NCBI GenBank assembly: GCA_017624835.1
Contig: JAGAMG010000019.1
Span: forward strand, 1-36,688
Source: Lachnospiraceae bacterium
Lineage (GTDB): Bacteria; Bacillota; Clostridia; Lachnospirales; Lachnospiraceae
Length of the DNA: 36,688 bases
Direction: 5' to 3'
How positions within the stretch are numbered: the first letter of the stretch is position 1; the number at the start of each line of letters is the position of its first letter. Below are positions 28,472 to 36,558 of the stretch, in pieces. The translations under genes were made by a program, and so were the position numbers. The notes under the pieces are model-generated. The model was not told where the DNA came from, searched no databases, and saw only the letters and a program-made list of their open reading frames with translations.

Positions 28472-28495
28472 TTGCATGTATAAATCGCTTATTAT

Positions 28496-28566
28496 TGTAT
28501 ATTTATTCCTTTTAGTGTATATTTACAAGTTGGTATGTTGACATCGTATATTGTATATGCTATATT
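28496..28566 (+). promoter_or_regulatory. Promoter of the PBECR gene with upstream direct repeats
   Basis: TTGACA (28538-28543) and TATATT (28561-28566) are separated by 17 bases. Upstream, TGTATATTTA occurs twice, at 28496-28505 and 28516-28525, exactly 20 bases (two helical turns) apart, as expected for a tandem operator. The leader of about 110 bases is very AT-rich with no obvious structure. Confidence 0.65.
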
Positions 28567-28681
28567 TTGATTATTAATAAAAAAACATTCAACTCGAATT
28601 ATTTTAATCAATCTATATAATTCTGTTTCAAAAATCAAAACCTAATTTCCGTTTTTTATTTTCAAATAAAGGAAGTACCCC

Positions 28682-29053
28682 ATGCAAATAATTGGATATA
28701 TTACACCACAAGTTATAAATACTTTAGGGTTAGAGTTCTGTCCCAATACTCCTATATATATTGGAGAATCAAATATAGAACATATTAAAAATCGCCATCC
28801 CTATGAATATGAAAAATATTTCTCAGAAATAGAAAATATAATAAATTCACCGGACTATGTAGGCAAAAATCCAAAGGATTCTTCTCTGCTCTTTGTAAAG
28901 CTATACAAAATAGCAAATGAATACCTTCGTGTTGCTATCAAGGTTTCAGCAAGTGGTAAATGTTTTGCTAAAACCTTGCATTTATTGAGTACATGTAATG
29001 CAGAACGTTATATAGAAAAAGGTACACTCAAAAAGATTGAAAAAAGAGATTAA
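28682..29053 (+). CDS. PBECR-type (RelE/barnase/EndoU-like fold) predicted RNase, stand-alone
   Basis: The 123-residue protein fits the PBECR domain family defined from phage and polyvalent proteins. Signs are GYITPQVINTLGLEF, IYIGESNIEHIKNRHP with the candidate catalytic histidines, YFSEIENIINSPDYVGKNPK, and a C-terminal VAIKVSASGKCFAKTLH. It fills the whole reading frame, with no signal peptide or fusion partner. AAGGAAG lies six bases before ATG 28682. Its codon use is AT-rich compared with the arg genes on either side, which suggests transfer. No protein antitoxin gene lies next to it; a structured RNA begins just downstream. Toxic RNase activity is inferred from the family, not shown. 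Confidence 0.72.
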   Translation: MQIIGYITPQVINTLGLEFCPNTPIYIGESNIEHIKNRHPYEYEKYFSEIENIINSPDYVGKNPKDSSLLFVKLYKIANEYLRVAIKVSASGKCFAKTLHLLSTCNAERYIEKGTLKKIEKRD

Positions 29054-29058
29054 AACCC

Positions 29059-29086
29059 TTGACACCATACCTAAATCATGTATAAT
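29059..29086 (+). promoter_or_regulatory. Strong promoter of the structured RNA
   Basis: TTGACA (29059-29064) and TATAAT (29081-29086) are perfect hexamers spaced by 16 bases, starting six bases after the stop of the PBECR gene. The transcript should begin near 29092. Confidence 0.85.
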
Positions 29087-29091
29087 TAGCT

Positions 29092-29228
29092 TACACCAAA
29101 CATAAAATATTTTGAATGAAATCTGAGGACGGAACAGGCGGCCGTCGCCCTTGTTAGGAGATGTGGATTGTCACCCACCTATTTCATTCAGCTATGTTGG
29201 CAGATAACTTCGGTTATCTGCCTTTTTT
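29092..29228 (+). ncRNA. Candidate ~135-nt structured small RNA, family not recognised
   Basis: A 10-bp helix (TGAATGAAAT 29113-29122 with ATTTCATTCA 29181-29190) closes a junction. Inside are a GC-rich hairpin (AACAGGCG with CGCC...TGTT) whose loop CCGTC can pair with upstream GACGG as a pseudoknot, and a second hairpin (AGG...GTGG with CCAC...CCT). A very strong terminator ends the transcript. There is no ribosome binding site followed by a plausible frame. It does not look like 6S, SRP, tmRNA, a T-box or any riboswitch I know; no arg gene is read through it because of the terminator. It may work in trans, or with the PBECR protein upstream. Confidence 0.75.
29199..29228 (+). terminator. 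Rho-independent terminator of the small RNA
   Basis: A perfect 10-bp stem (GGCAGATAAC with GTTATCTGCC) around a stable UUCG tetraloop is followed by six T residues. This is one of the clearest terminators in the window. Confidence 0.95.
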
Positions 29229-29296
29229 ATATTCTTTTGTTTTTCTTTGAATAATTTAGACATTTGTGATGAGTGCTTTGACAGTAGTTTTCTTTG

Positions 29297-29427
29297 TTTT
29301 ATGCATATTTATGCGCATGCACTTTTGTTTTATGCAAACATGTGCATATTTTAATGTTTTTTATTCATAAAAAGAAATATTTTATGCAACTTTTCTGCTT
29401 GCAATTCCTTAAAGAATGTTGTATAGT
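29297..29427 (+). promoter_or_regulatory. argG promoter and clustered ARG-box-like sites
   Basis: TTGCAA (29399-29404) and TATAGT (29422-29427) are 17 bases apart. TTTTATGCA occurs at 29297-29305, 29328-29336 and 29380-29388, each with a partner (GCATATTT or similar) as part of imperfect palindromes. ATTCATAAAAA at about 29363 matches the classic ARG half-site. The same TGCATAAAA motif flanks argC, so both units are probably under one ArgR-type regulator. Confidence 0.65.
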
Positions 29428-32334: not shown

Positions 32335-35300
32335 CTACTTATAGTTGCCGGACTTTTTATTAAACAATATTACTACACCTACAGATAGGAGTACTATCAT
32401 AAAAGCAATCCACAGTTCTAATTGGCTGCTATCCCCTGTGTTGGGTACATTATCCTTGATTTTCCCTGTATTCTTTTCGGTATCGCTTTCTTCGGCATCA
32501 TTTTCTTCAGACTCTGTCTCCTCCTCAGCATCACCAAAACCTCCATTTCCGGAATCCGGTTTCTGAGGCTGTCCCTGCTGTGGTTCATCCTTTGGAGTTT
32601 CGTCCTCAGCTGCAATCTCTTTCCAGCCAACCATAATCGGGGACAAACCGGTTACCTGGAACTGTAATCCTGCATCCGTCTTGGTTACAACAGGATTTTC
32701 CGTTGTTCCCGGAGTTTTTCCAAAATCAGAGGTTGTAAACATATGCACCACAGTAAACTCATGGGTATCCTTTCCTGTGCCTTCCGGATAAGGAAGGAGT
32801 ACTGTCAGCTTACCACTTGCAGGCCAATGGTCTTTATCCGCTTTATCCCAGGTCTTTCCACCATCCGAACTGCATTGCAAGGTCACATCATAAACTAAAG
32901 TCTTATCTGCCACCACTTCCTGTTTCAGAATCTCCTGTTTCAATACTGTAGTGATCTTTTCCACTGTATTTAACAAAGGATTGTACTTAAAGGTTTCCGG
33001 CACAGTGGTTATTCCCTTTTCCATTTCCAGCTTGAAGTTTGCACCATTTACCTCAGTAGGTGTGGGCAGATTTTCTTTTTCTCCCTGACTGACAGTAAGA
33101 ATCAATTCTGCCACGGTATCAGACTTATAATTTTTATCAGTAGTCTTTACCGTAAGAGTAATCTGCGCTCCCGCTTTTGCATCTGCCGGTATGGTATATA
33201 CGCCTTCAAAGATACCATCTCCTTTTGCAATAAAGCTTACTCCCTCCAGGAAAATTGTTGCCGGATGGGTTGTATCTGCTGCCTGAAGTTCCTTCTTATT
33301 TTGAGCAGTCACTGTCAATTTTACCTGACTACCAGCTTTTTGCGTTACTACATTACTATTGATTGTAAGGGTTGCTTCTGCCTCTGTAATGGTAAACATG
33401 GATGCATCCTCAGCAAGCTTAATGGTATAATTACCATTTGTCAATCCACTTACATCATAGCCATAATTTCCAACCTTTTCACCCACTACTCTTTTTAAGG
33501 AACCGCTTATACTATCTCCGGTTAATAATCCCTCTGCCTGATATGCAATCGCAGGGTCAAGAGAACCATATACCTTAGTATACGTTTTATCCGGGCTAAT
33601 AGTAACATTTTTAGGTACAATTACTGCGCCAGCTCCGGAAGCTGTATCTGCAATGGTGTAATTTTCATTTACAGCTTCCCCTGCTGCCAATTTAATACCG
33701 GATGCTGTAATTGTCTTATTGGTACCTGCATTGTAATCCGCATATTGGAACACAACATTACTATTGTCTAAAACAGCTGTTTCACTTCCCACGCAACCGG
33801 AAATGATTAATTGAGGCTGTTCTGTTCCACTGACTGTAGTAGTTCTATCATATTCCTTTGTTACTCCTCTCACACTTACCTGTACCGTAAGCGCCTTGGG
33901 ATTTACTTGGAATGTGGCGGTTTTGGTTCCGATTTGTTCATCATCCTCATAAGCATACTTAACCAGATAAGTACCTGCCGGCAGATAACCGGAACTATTC
34001 TGTAATGCCTCCAATGTCTGATAAGCATCCTCACCCTGCTTTTTATAAGTAAAGACTTCTACCGGCTGCCCCTGTGCAGTTCCTGTAAGGCTACCTGCTG
34101 GTGCAGGACTCGTACCATAGGGCATATCTGCTATGGTCAATGTAAGCTTATCATCCACCACATACTTATCCACAACTTGAATTGTTACAGCCGCTGTAAT
34201 ATCTTCATGAGTATCACTGGTTACTGTAACTTCAATTTGAGCGGTATCATCCACATTTGCATTTGTCAAAGTGCCTAAGGTATAACTAATGCTTCCCGCT
34301 GTAAAGGTAACACCACTTAGGATATTATTGCTATCCGTCTTTTCTGTGGCAGCAGTAATCCTGGGATTTCCTACATTGGTCAGCAGCAGTTCTGCAAGCT
34401 GTAGCTCGCCGGTGCTTTCGGTATAACGCACCTTTTTCTCTGCTGAAATTCCGGTTAATGCTGCTGCTTTAGCAATGGTATAGGCTTGTTCTGTTACCGT
34501 ACCGGTCAAGGTATAATTCACTGCCTTTGCTCCGGTAAGTGCCACCGCCTTTGCAGTATGGGTTCCTACCGCGGTTTGATTGCCATTTTCAACGGTTACC
34601 TGCACTGCATCATTATTTAAAAGATTGGATACTGTAGCCGTAACTTCCTGCCCATCCCCATAGGTTCTGCCGGTATGTCCTGACCAGCTAAGGGTTACGG
34701 GAAGCGGATTTATAGTTAAGCTACCGGGTACTACCGTAATGTTATAGTTGGATGCCACTACATTTTCCATACTTGCAGTAATGGTATAGGTACCTGTCAC
34801 ATCACCATATTGTACATAATTGGTGGAATATACAGGTGCGCCGCTTACCACGGCATCCGTCTCTCCATTTACAAATCCGCTATATACAACACTGTTAATT
34901 AATACACTAGGGTTATCTCCATAGGTAAGAGTTTGATTCTGTACCGTTGCGGTTAAAGGTAATTGTTGAATTTCAAATTCTTTTGTACTATTTACAGTTG
35001 TTCCCAATACGGTATTTGCAGTAATTTTTACCACATATGTTCCTGCATTGCTCGGCGCAGAGGCTAATGCATTTACTAAATCAGACTTCGCATACCAAGC
35101 TACCTCCGCATTGCTGCAATCAGTAAGGGTATAAGTAATATCATTGTCAGTACCTGTGCCAATAGTTACTGCTGCACCATCATATACAATGGAATTTTTT
35201 GCAGTAATCGTAATACCTGCATCAAGGATTGTAAGTGTTCCTGGCACATAACTAATATTATAGTTTGCTGTTACATCCTCATTGTTCGCACCACGTACAA

Positions 35301-36558
35301 TCTTAGCACCGGATGCGGTTATCTTCTTTGTAGCAGTGTCCGCTGTCAAAGTAATGGCATTCAAATTATGCTCTGCTGCCGAACTATCTGCCAATGTCTC
35401 AGAATAAGTTACATTAGAAGTTCCCTGCGCAATAGCACCGCCCTTATTGATGGTCTGATCACTTGCCGTAATGGTCAAAGTGCGCTTACCAATGGCGAAG
35501 GTACCGGAAGCTGCTCCGGTATAGGTAGGATTGCTGTCCGATGCGGTAATGGTTATATTTGCAAGATTTCCTGCATCTGTATTATTGGCATAGCTGATAG
35601 AATAATCAGTGTTGTTTAATGCAATTTCATTTCCATTTAAAGTAACTGTCAAATCACTTACAGAAGGCTCCTTTGCTAATCCGTCATAGGTATAAGAAAC
35701 GCCATTCTTCAAAGCAACGGTTGCTCCTGCCAGACTCTCTTTTGCAGTGGTTACTGTCAAGTCTTCTCCACCTGACATGCTGAAACTATTTCCTGCATTG
35801 TCCTCTACTACAATCTTAAAGGTATATGTAGTATTGGGCTCCATACCAGTAACCGTAAAGGTTCCACTATCAGTTCCACCATCATTAGTAGGAACAAATG
35901 CTCCAATAATAGGAGCAGCCCCATCTGCATTGGTACAGGTTAAGGTATACTTCGCAATTCCGGACAAATCATCCGATGCTGTTACAGATAAAATCGCACT
36001 ATTATAAGTTATTTCATCAAATGCTACACTGGGTCTCTGCGGTGGTACGCTATCTGTATTTACAGTTCCGATATATGTTTTCGCTACTACACTTGAATCT
36101 GAATCTGATTTTAACCAATAAGGAATACTGGTATGTGTACCGTTTGCAATACTCACCTGGGCTGCAAAAGTTCCGTTTTCCGTATCTGAGATTGTATATC
36201 CGGTGGGTGCAACCAAATATGCCTCCTTGTACCAACCATTATTTCCCGGAGTAGCCGGATTAAGAGTTGCATCAGGAATGGTTGGCTGTGTAGGGTCTGT
36301 AACGGTGAGGGTAATGGTTTCGGTTACACTACCTTGCTCTGTGGTATCTGCTGTGATTTTTATGGTGTAGGTACCGGGGGCGATGTCGGAATGAGTTGCA
36401 TGTGGCTCAATACATTTACAGAATACTAAAACATCTATTACCTCATCCTCGGATACGTCAGCAATACTACCATAAATATTTATTCCCAAATCAGATACAC
36501 AATAATTATAGTCTATACTAGTATCTATATCTGTAGCTATATATTTCGTTTCAGTCAA
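32335..36558 (-). CDS. Large MBG/Ig-like repeat cell-wall protein, 5' end missing or replaced
   Basis: The frame holds 1407 codons. After ~50 AT-rich, atypical residues come an Ig-like part (GTYTIKITADTTEQG), a fibronectin III-like part (about 170-270, SVAFDEITYNSAILSVTA), then several MBG/YDG-type beta modules with endings such as YNISYVPGTLTI, YNITVVPGSLTI and NPKALTVQVSV. An acidic Glu/Asp linker leads to a sorting signal VPNTGD, a membrane helix and a lysine-containing tail, so sortase should anchor it to the wall. No signal peptide is present, and the only in-frame start is a TTG without a ribosome binding site; the in-frame stop upstream is at 36622-36624. It may be a silent or truncated copy. 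Confidence 0.8.
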   Translation of the reverse strand: MTETKYIATDIDTSIDYNYCVSDLGINIYGSIADVSEDEVIDVLVFCKCIEPHATHSDIAPGTYTIKITADTTEQGSVTETITLTVTDPTQPTIPDATLNPATPGNNGWYKEAYLVAPTGYTISDTENGTFAAQVSIANGTHTSIPYWLKSDSDSSVVAKTYIGTVNTDSVPPQRPSVAFDEITYNSAILSVTASDDLSGIAKYTLTCTNADGAAPIIGAFVPTNDGGTDSGTFTVTGMEPNTTYTFKIVVEDNAGNSFSMSGGEDLTVTTAKESLAGATVALKNGVSYTYDGLAKEPSVSDLTVTLNGNEIALNNTDYSISYANNTDAGNLANITITASDSNPTYTGAASGTFAIGKRTLTITASDQTINKGGAIAQGTSNVTYSETLADSSAAEHNLNAITLTADTATKKITASGAKIVRGANNEDVTANYNISYVPGTLTILDAGITITAKNSIVYDGAAVTIGTGTDNDITYTLTDCSNAEVAWYAKSDLVNALASAPSNAGTYVVKITANTVLGTTVNSTKEFEIQQLPLTATVQNQTLTYGDNPSVLINSVVYSGFVNGETDAVVSGAPVYSTNYVQYGDVTGTYTITASMENVVASNYNITVVPGSLTINPLPVTLSWSGHTGRTYGDGQEVTATVSNLLNNDAVQVTVENGNQTAVGTHTAKAVALTGAKAVNYTLTGTVTEQAYTIAKAAALTGISAEKKVRYTESTGELQLAELLLTNVGNPRITAATEKTDSNNILSGVTFTAGSISYTLGTLTNANVDDTAQIEVTVTSDTHEDITAAVTIQVVDKYVVDDKLTLTIADMPYGTSPAPAGSLTGTAQGQPVEVFTYKKQGEDAYQTLEALQNSSGYLPAGTYLVKYAYEDDEQIGTKTATFQVNPKALTVQVSVRGVTKEYDRTTTVSGTEQPQLIISGCVGSETAVLDNSNVVFQYADYNAGTNKTITASGIKLAAGEAVNENYTIADTASGAGAVIVPKNVTISPDKTYTKVYGSLDPAIAYQAEGLLTGDSISGSLKRVVGEKVGNYGYDVSGLTNGNYTIKLAEDASMFTITEAEATLTINSNVVTQKAGSQVKLTVTAQNKKELQAADTTHPATIFLEGVSFIAKGDGIFEGVYTIPADAKAGAQITLTVKTTDKNYKSDTVAELILTVSQGEKENLPTPTEVNGANFKLEMEKGITTVPETFKYNPLLNTVEKITTVLKQEILKQEVVADKTLVYDVTLQCSSDGGKTWDKADKDHWPASGKLTVLLPYPEGTGKDTHEFTVVHMFTTSDFGKTPGTTENPVVTKTDAGLQFQVTGLSPIMVGWKEIAAEDETPKDEPQQGQPQKPDSGNGGFGDAEEETESEENDAEESDTEKNTGKIKDNVPNTGDSSQLELWIAFMIVLLSVGVVILFNKKSGNYK

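Follow-up and report, generated by a model that had tools for sequence, protein, structure and literature searches.

In the known type III toxin-antitoxin (TA) systems (ToxIN, AbiQ, TenpNI and CptNI), a tandem-repeat RNA lies before the gene of a toxin homologous to ToxN and is co-transcribed with it, with a terminator between the two (PMC12373285). The closest demonstrated mechanism that we found to the one considered here is that of AbiF-RCd22 from a Clostridioides difficile prophage, in which a phage-borne toxic protein is neutralised by a structured RNA that binds it directly, in cis and in trans (PMC12373285). Here we describe a locus in a 36,688-nucleotide (nt) stretch of a Lachnospiraceae genome (contig JAGAMG010000019.1 of assembly GCA_017624835.1; the whole stretch is referred to as the window), in which the gene for a predicted ribonuclease (RNase) of the PBECR3 family (123 aa, 28682..29053, + strand) is followed by a skipping-rope RNA of the Rfam family RF02924 (core 29118..29185, + strand). 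We put the probability that this locus is a two-part TA or immunity unit, made up of a PBECR RNase toxin and a skipping-rope RNA, at roughly three in four. From sequence comparison, we infer that the protein would be an active and toxic nuclease, and that the RNA would bind it directly and neutralise it.

As in type III systems, a putative RNase toxin is accompanied by a structured, pseudoknotted RNA, and extra RNA copies are found at some sites. In contrast to them, the RNA here is 3′ of the toxin gene or convergent with it, has its own promoter-like site, is present as a single copy in the window, and the toxin is of the PBECR2/3 type. As three features of type III systems (an upstream and co-transcribed RNA, tandem repeats and a ToxN-family toxin) are absent, the locus was not classed as type III. 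The best explanation is a unit that is type III-like in its working, but differs in toxin family, RNA and gene order. AbiF-RCd22 differs in that its toxin is Abi_2 and its RNA is upstream and co-transcribed; no relation to PBECR or to skipping-rope RNA is evident, and the word "skipping" is absent from the main text of PMC12373285.

Both parts of the locus belong to families described previously. PBECR nucleases were reported from phages and mobile elements, both as solo proteins and as fusions (Iyer et al. 2017, PMC5512222), and the consulted sections of that paper mention no RNA partner or antitoxin for them. RF02924, pseudoknot included, is catalogued as a small RNA (sRNA) (Rfam; PMC7779021), and its partner and function are not given in the consulted sections of PMC7779021. 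No published function for skipping-rope RNA was found in the literature searched, nor any literature linking skipping-rope or RF02924 to a toxin, although most subscription papers and bioRxiv preprints were outside this search. The RNA is already known as a family. The pairing suggests a function for this curated family, which is listed as sRNA and nothing more, and a partner for PBECR and MuF-PBECR nucleases. If true, a further widespread group of nucleases would join ToxN and AbiF as toxins neutralised by RNA.

A search for the RNA and the gene as a pair across genomes had been called for by the initial annotation, which was made from the letters of the window, and the pair was recovered in each collection searched. 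In 200 genomes of the family, RF02924 was found directly 3′ and on the same strand at 27 of 30 PBECR2/3 places, against a chance expectation of about 0.0004 pairs (assuming 2.9 Mb per genome). These genomes held 51 matches to RF02924 (in 36 genomes), 24 to PBECR3 (in 21) and 25 to PBECR2 (in 21). Two of the three misses (G177 and G135) encode proteins that resemble another PBECR subclade by sequence. The genome contigs were also scanned with a subgroup profile (A2, PBECR2-like), which is less informative on close relatives of the window protein. For public genomes, the best 80 of 230 relatives were picked by toxin sequence alone, and the RNA adjoined the toxin in all 79 testable loci (L244 stops inside the toxin and was set aside). 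It was detected in 75 of the 80 in the main scan, in L254 and L259 with filters off, and in L237 and L260 from other scans, the contig of L237 being matched by length and position to one in the family-genome scan. Carriers include Blautia massiliensis, Ruminococcus bicirculans 80/3, Catonella morbi, Eubacterium aggregans and Selenomonas species.

Viral records (IMG/VR) and plasmids gave the same picture. Among 48 viral loci picked by toxin sequence, 47 hold the RNA, and it lies beside the toxin in 46 of the 47 testable (L222 stops inside the toxin), the sole miss being L186, with its RNA 2.3 kb away. The plasmid and phage set comprised 15 loci taken from partly overlapping lists of 1, 1, 18, 6 and 10 records, and the RNA was present in 14/14 testable loci (L342 ends at the toxin stop), with a weak match in L350 (18.3 bits, E 8e-4) and near-copies in L338/L351 and L341/L352. 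Nine of these have the RNA on the same strand (two from Fusobacterium polymorphum and one each from F. nucleatum, Treponema saccharophilum, Macrococcoides, Brevibacillus, Priestia, Sporosarcina and a faecal phage), and five plasmids have it convergent (Bacillus subtilis pTA1060, two of B. velezensis, one of Planococcus and, as a weak match, one of Azospirillum). Plasmid carriers of the pair are thus in Bacillota, Fusobacteriota and Spirochaetota, with the weak RNA match in Pseudomonadota. All counts are to be read in the light of overlapping collections, as some public-genome contigs recur among the genomes of the other scans; in addition, a large share of the genomes are metagenome assemblies or not complete.

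The breadth of this pairing bears on the idea that the RNA regulates something else, such as a host or phage messenger RNA (mRNA) or a broader defence, and merely co-travels with PBECR genes on mobile elements. The viral and plasmid contexts would agree with it, as would RNAs found without a PBECR gene beside other toxin or defence genes. However, spacing and pairing are constant across several phyla, in viral records as well as on plasmids and chromosomes, and the RNA and toxin subtypes shift together, so we regard it as very improbable.

Some of the viral and plasmid loci have features of their own. In L223 (IMG/VR 3300006155_000126), the toxin frame is broken and a high-scoring RNA is adjacent. 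In L186 (IMG/VR 2857266821_000005), the toxin tail and the RNA promoter are doubled about 2.3 kb apart, with the RNA only after the second copy, like toxin cassette arrays. In L340 and L341 (2077-2132), from pTA1060 and a B. velezensis plasmid, the Bacillus-plasmid RNA RF01691 is located about 100 nt past the skipping-rope RNA.

Solitary RNAs and solitary toxins differ in frequency. Scans of 200, 295 and 398 genomes (partly the same genomes) gave 135 RNA places in 107 genomes, of which 77 have an adjacent PBECR gene (73 same-strand ORFs (open reading frames), 2 convergent and 2 truncated remnants), with tandem copies counted singly and with G270:C60:1508 and G270:C60:6222 counted as non-adjacent, their nearest toxins being 3.9 and 0.8 kb away. 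The initial annotation held that an RNA found widely without the nuclease gene would speak against it. This is so in part, as 58 of the 135 places have no adjacent PBECR gene, whereas the converse, a toxin without the RNA, is rare (3/30), as expected of an antitoxin. The scores of orphan RNAs (median 55.75 bits) are as high as those of the others (median 55.0 bits). A toxin that is rarely without its RNA, together with an RNA that is often without the toxin, is the pattern of an antitoxin or immunity element and speaks against an RNA cofactor.

The sequences of the two parts also diverge together. The distance matrices of toxins and RNAs were correlated (Mantel r 0.856, n=62 pairs), none of 2000 permutations being as high (maximum 0.165), and r remained 0.82 for toxin pairs of <60% identity. 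At this level of comparison, the co-divergence shows joint inheritance, which would be consistent with matched specificity, and shared descent of one unit may explain much of it. A nuclease that requires the RNA as cofactor or guide, the pair being an active ribonucleoprotein effector, would fit equally well with the RNA almost always accompanying the protein and with the co-divergence. A cofactor should not outlive its enzyme as often as the count of solitary RNAs indicates, though, and no variable guide-like stretch is evident, much of the variable sequence forming intramolecular pairs in helices and kissing loops. We consider this effector unlikely.

The RNA is predicted to be a separate transcript, because inverted copies are found on plasmids and because many of the RNAs have their own promoters. 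In the window, a promoter matching the consensus at 12/12 positions (TTGACA-16-TATAAT, 29059..29086, + strand) precedes a predicted transcript of about 136 nt (29093..29228, + strand; the 5′ end is deduced from the promoter), which ends in an intrinsic terminator (29199..29228, + strand) with a 10-bp hairpin at 29199-29222 followed by T6. The perfect promoter reported in the initial annotation was thus confirmed, but it begins five bases after the toxin stop codon and not six, and the structured RNA of about 135 nt with a strong terminator in the same orientation was also borne out. In 80 of the 135 places, the 90 nt preceding the RNA contain a promoter match of 10/12 or better, compared with 19/388 windows further upstream and 15/405 base shuffles, and a T-run followed the RNA in 83/134 compared with 25/132. 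Among the gaps between toxin and RNA that measure 40-260 nt, 14 of 36 contain the whole promoter, compared with 6 of 180 shuffled gaps. In several PBECR2-type loci (L025, L030, L184 and others), the conserved LYKKE-stop end of the toxin overlaps the -35 hexamer of the RNA promoter; part of the promoter signal may therefore reflect conserved codons.

The order of toxin then RNA, as proposed initially, holds in the window and in most pairs, but it is not fixed, since the RNA is convergent in G748, with its own promoter and terminator signals, and in the five plasmids. These inverted RNAs exclude a simple role in the 3′ untranslated region (UTR) at those loci, and a 3′ UTR element as such was rejected in view of the inverted copies and the RNA's own promoter. 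A broader version is that the RNA acts in cis on the toxin mRNA and sets the toxin level, as a stabiliser in the 3′ UTR, as an attenuator or as a target of cleavage. Its position 10-86 nt past the toxin stop in 67 of the 73 adjacent same-strand places is what such an element would show, but inverted RNAs in G748 and in the plasmids of B. subtilis (pTA1060), B. velezensis (two), Planococcus and Azospirillum (weak), RNAs with their own promoters and RNA copies without a toxin all argue the other way, making it very unlikely. In G748:C11 (L085, L107), there are two convergent pairs 50 kb apart, in one of which the toxin is without an internal stretch and the RNA is kept with a small duplication.

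Other arrangements were considered and rejected. Type I antisense regulation was rejected: in the window, the RNA shares the strand of the toxin ORF and lies outside it, and the two also share a strand in 73 of the 75 places where a toxin ORF adjoins the RNA. For type II, there is no second ORF of >50 aa in the gap between argC and argG, a size limit that does not exclude proteins of 50 aa or fewer. An attC-like recombination site was set aside, as promoter and terminator signals accompany the RNA and as the sequence of its outer helix changes with pairing kept.

The identity of the RNA was established by its match to RF02924 (41.8 bits versus a gathering score of 36.7), and one copy of the family was found in the genome of the window, which is estimated to be 85% complete. 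For the predicted 136-nt transcript, the folding energy is -42.2 kcal/mol (z -3.9), a value that 1/200 shuffles equalled or bettered. Its core contains helix P1 (29118-29122/29181-29185), helix P2 (29128-29132/29142-29146), helix P4 (29163-29166/29175-29178) and a loop-loop pseudoknot (29137-29139/29170-29172), all on the + strand and at positions read by hand. In an alignment (A5) of 31 RNAs, that of the window and 30 of 54 selected ones, 20 of 21 base pairs had changes on both sides, the loop-loop pseudoknot among them, and the covariation score was 0.57 compared with 0.19 shuffled and at most 0.19 slid, although the structure was drawn on the same 31 sequences, which favours this result. 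In an alignment-free test, the seven outer pairs were complete in 66% of 127 RNAs and in 3% when ends were swapped between RNAs.

The usual RNA is one unit of about 68-116 nt, and several copies were present at 5 of 129 RNA sites. Close clusters of skipping-rope RNAs were seen in L127 (G270:C60), L117 (G198:C70) and L118 (G190:C44). In the G190 cluster, RNAs of two different subtypes are side by side and no toxin was found.

The window protein matched PBECR3 (PF18812) with 85 bits (E 4.6e-24; Pfam cut-off 30) and PBECR2 with 36.6 bits (E 6.1e-9; cut-off 27.1), the only Pfam families above cut-off, which is in agreement with the PBECR-type RNase proposed initially. No MuF or minor capsid domain was found at its N-terminus with Pfam, and NCBIfam and PADLOC searches gave no match. 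In an alignment (A1) of 51 of 60 deduplicated toxins, 50 matched PBECR2 and 48 matched PBECR3 at E 0.001. The AlphaFold2 model made from this alignment (predicted local distance difference test 94.5, predicted template modelling score 0.87) has N-terminal helices, strands at 59-62, 69-75, 80-88 and 94-102, and then a C-terminal helix. Residues of the BECR active-site type are kept, with H34 in 55/62 and T or S at position 98 in 62/62 aligned proteins; in the model, H34 falls in helix 29-38 and T98 in strand 94-102, which fits the BECR active-site arrangement as defined in the consulted part of PMC5512222. Further conserved residues are H39, P57, D58, Y59, K73 and K/R87.

RNase activity of the window protein is predicted, and the activity of the PBECR family is itself a prediction (PMC5512222). 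The protein could instead be a catalytically dead, RNA-binding relative without toxicity, with the RNA as its ligand, and an inactive domain is described in the MuF protein of phage Mu (PMC5512222). The retention of the catalytic-type residues is contrary to this, and we find it extremely improbable. The top three solved structures in a Foldseek search were the BrnT RNase toxin, a Salmonella toxin-antitoxin complex and a contact-dependent inhibition system (best E 0.027), and no ToxN-family title was among the 50 matches listed. A search of the PDB (Protein Data Bank) with the toxin sequence profile gave ribosomal L23 as best match, at E 0.065.

In the proposed TA unit, the PBECR protein would be a small metal-independent endoribonuclease toxin, and the skipping-rope RNA, made in excess from a strong promoter, would bind and block it, as ToxI does ToxN. 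If the unit were lost or its transcription stopped, the toxin would be set free. On plasmids and chromosomes, the pair could act as an addiction or defence module. Tractable pairs are available on the B. subtilis plasmid pTA1060 (NC_001766.1) and in the complete chromosome of R. bicirculans 80/3 (L275).

In phages, the proposed unit can be compared with the MuF polymorphic toxins of temperate phages (PMC5576092), which are MuF-type head proteins with C-terminal nuclease toxin domains. Among seven phage PBECR proteins scanned, five (463-874 aa) are built in this way, with an N-terminal Phage_Mu_F or Phage_min_cap2 domain and a C-terminal PBECR2, and the two shortest (200 and 211 aa) are PBECR2/3 alone. 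The RNA follows the toxin gene in all seven. Whereas the immunity of MuF toxins has been sought as small ORFs, in phage PBECR loci an RNA takes the place of their downstream small ORF. Attached behind a MuF-type minor head protein, the nuclease may be delivered to the next host along with the DNA, and the RNA would protect the lysogen. Two viral loci, L200 and L202, have sub-threshold metallopeptidase-like matches between MuF and PBECR2, as in polyvalent phage proteins.

A wider reading goes beyond the locus itself. Skipping-rope RNAs would be RNA antitoxins or immunity RNAs for PBECR2/3 toxins on chromosomes, plasmids and phages, copies on temperate phages would give immunity to a virion-borne MuF toxin, orphan RNAs would act as shields against such phages, and the gene order and separate promoter would define a distinct TA type. 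We hold this to be somewhat better than an even bet. A Streptococcus phage relative of PBECR is annotated spbA, which is the title locus of a 1992 paper (Lereclus and Arantes) on the segregational stability of plasmid pHT1030, and no pHT1030 record was among the plasmid matches. If SpbA of pHT1030 is of the PBECR family, a stabilising phenotype has already been recorded.

Several observations weigh against the TA reading. The third miss in the family genomes, G084 (L040, G084:C4), encodes a toxin that looks intact, belongs to the same clade and retains the conserved residues, and no RF02924 was found near it nor in the genome (the genome scan used stricter filters). A promoter match of at least 10/12 precedes just 59% of RNAs overall, and is less frequent for orphan RNAs (21/56) than for the others (59/79), in a split that counts the two G270 places as adjacent. 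The fold matches of the toxin model are weak, all Foldseek matches in the PDB having E >0.001. For MuF toxins, a small ORF taken as the immunity gene was reported downstream of 89.4% of 191 genes (PMC5576092). An RNA cofactor, an RNA substrate or a shared mobile unit could likewise account for the strong linkage and the co-divergence. Finally, some of the 58 orphan RNAs follow other toxin genes (YafQ, ParE and PIN), so the RNA may have other partners.

The orphan RNAs found after other genes follow YafQ in G433:C140 (L130), ParE in G210:C2 (L138), PIN in G060:C72 (L121), an MNT-type nucleotidyltransferase in G557:C87 (L088), Csm6-HEPN in G035:C1:548032 (L111) and Abi_2, 346 nt away, in G198:C13 (L113). 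Orphan RNAs near defence genes could be either defence-island strays or RNAs with other partners. In L004 (G131:C13), a 162-aa ORF ends 19 nt 5′ of a high-scoring skipping-rope RNA, in the toxin position; it has no Pfam match above cut-off and one sub-threshold acetyltransferase match, and is possibly another toxin family.

The toxin gene of the window also carries signals of its own. A promoter-like site with an extended -10 (TTGACA-17-TATATT, 28538..28566, + strand) matches the consensus at 11/12 positions, in line with the promoter of its own that the initial annotation gave the gene, and a likely ribosome-binding site, AGGAAG (28670..28675, + strand), was read from the sequence 6 nt 5′ of the ATG. 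Both promoters were assigned by consensus match only; the region contains 12 promoter-like sites compared with 7.3 in shuffles, so its weaker sites carry little meaning. The tandem operator-like repeats described upstream of the gene came down to a single 14-nt direct repeat, its two copies starting at 28492 and, 20 nt further on, at 28512, which is weak.

Toxin and RNA sit between the divergent argC and argG, in a gap of 1200 nt. In three genus relatives (L312, L321 and L322), this gap is 251, 289 and 204 nt, the genes are divergent, both edges are common to the window and the unit is absent, which agrees with the initial view that the unit splits the argC/argG region. The DNA missing from the gap of these relatives corresponds approximately to 28500..29400, the ends not being sharp. 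The 19 relatives' argC loci compared included 15 without argG inside the 1.5-kb flank and one (L325) with a gap of 1366 nt, so only three represent an empty site. By this comparison, the unit appears to have been either gained in the window lineage or lost in the three relatives. No clear terminal repeats or target duplication were seen across the insertion, only AT-rich imperfect repeats. There is no evident protein antitoxin, as was stated initially: besides the toxin, the longest ORF in the gap is 50 aa.

Elsewhere in the window, a very large repetitive protein is encoded at 32335-36558 (- strand), with a C-terminal PNTGD-type motif and a hydrophobic stretch, and it resembles a cell-wall-anchored surface protein.
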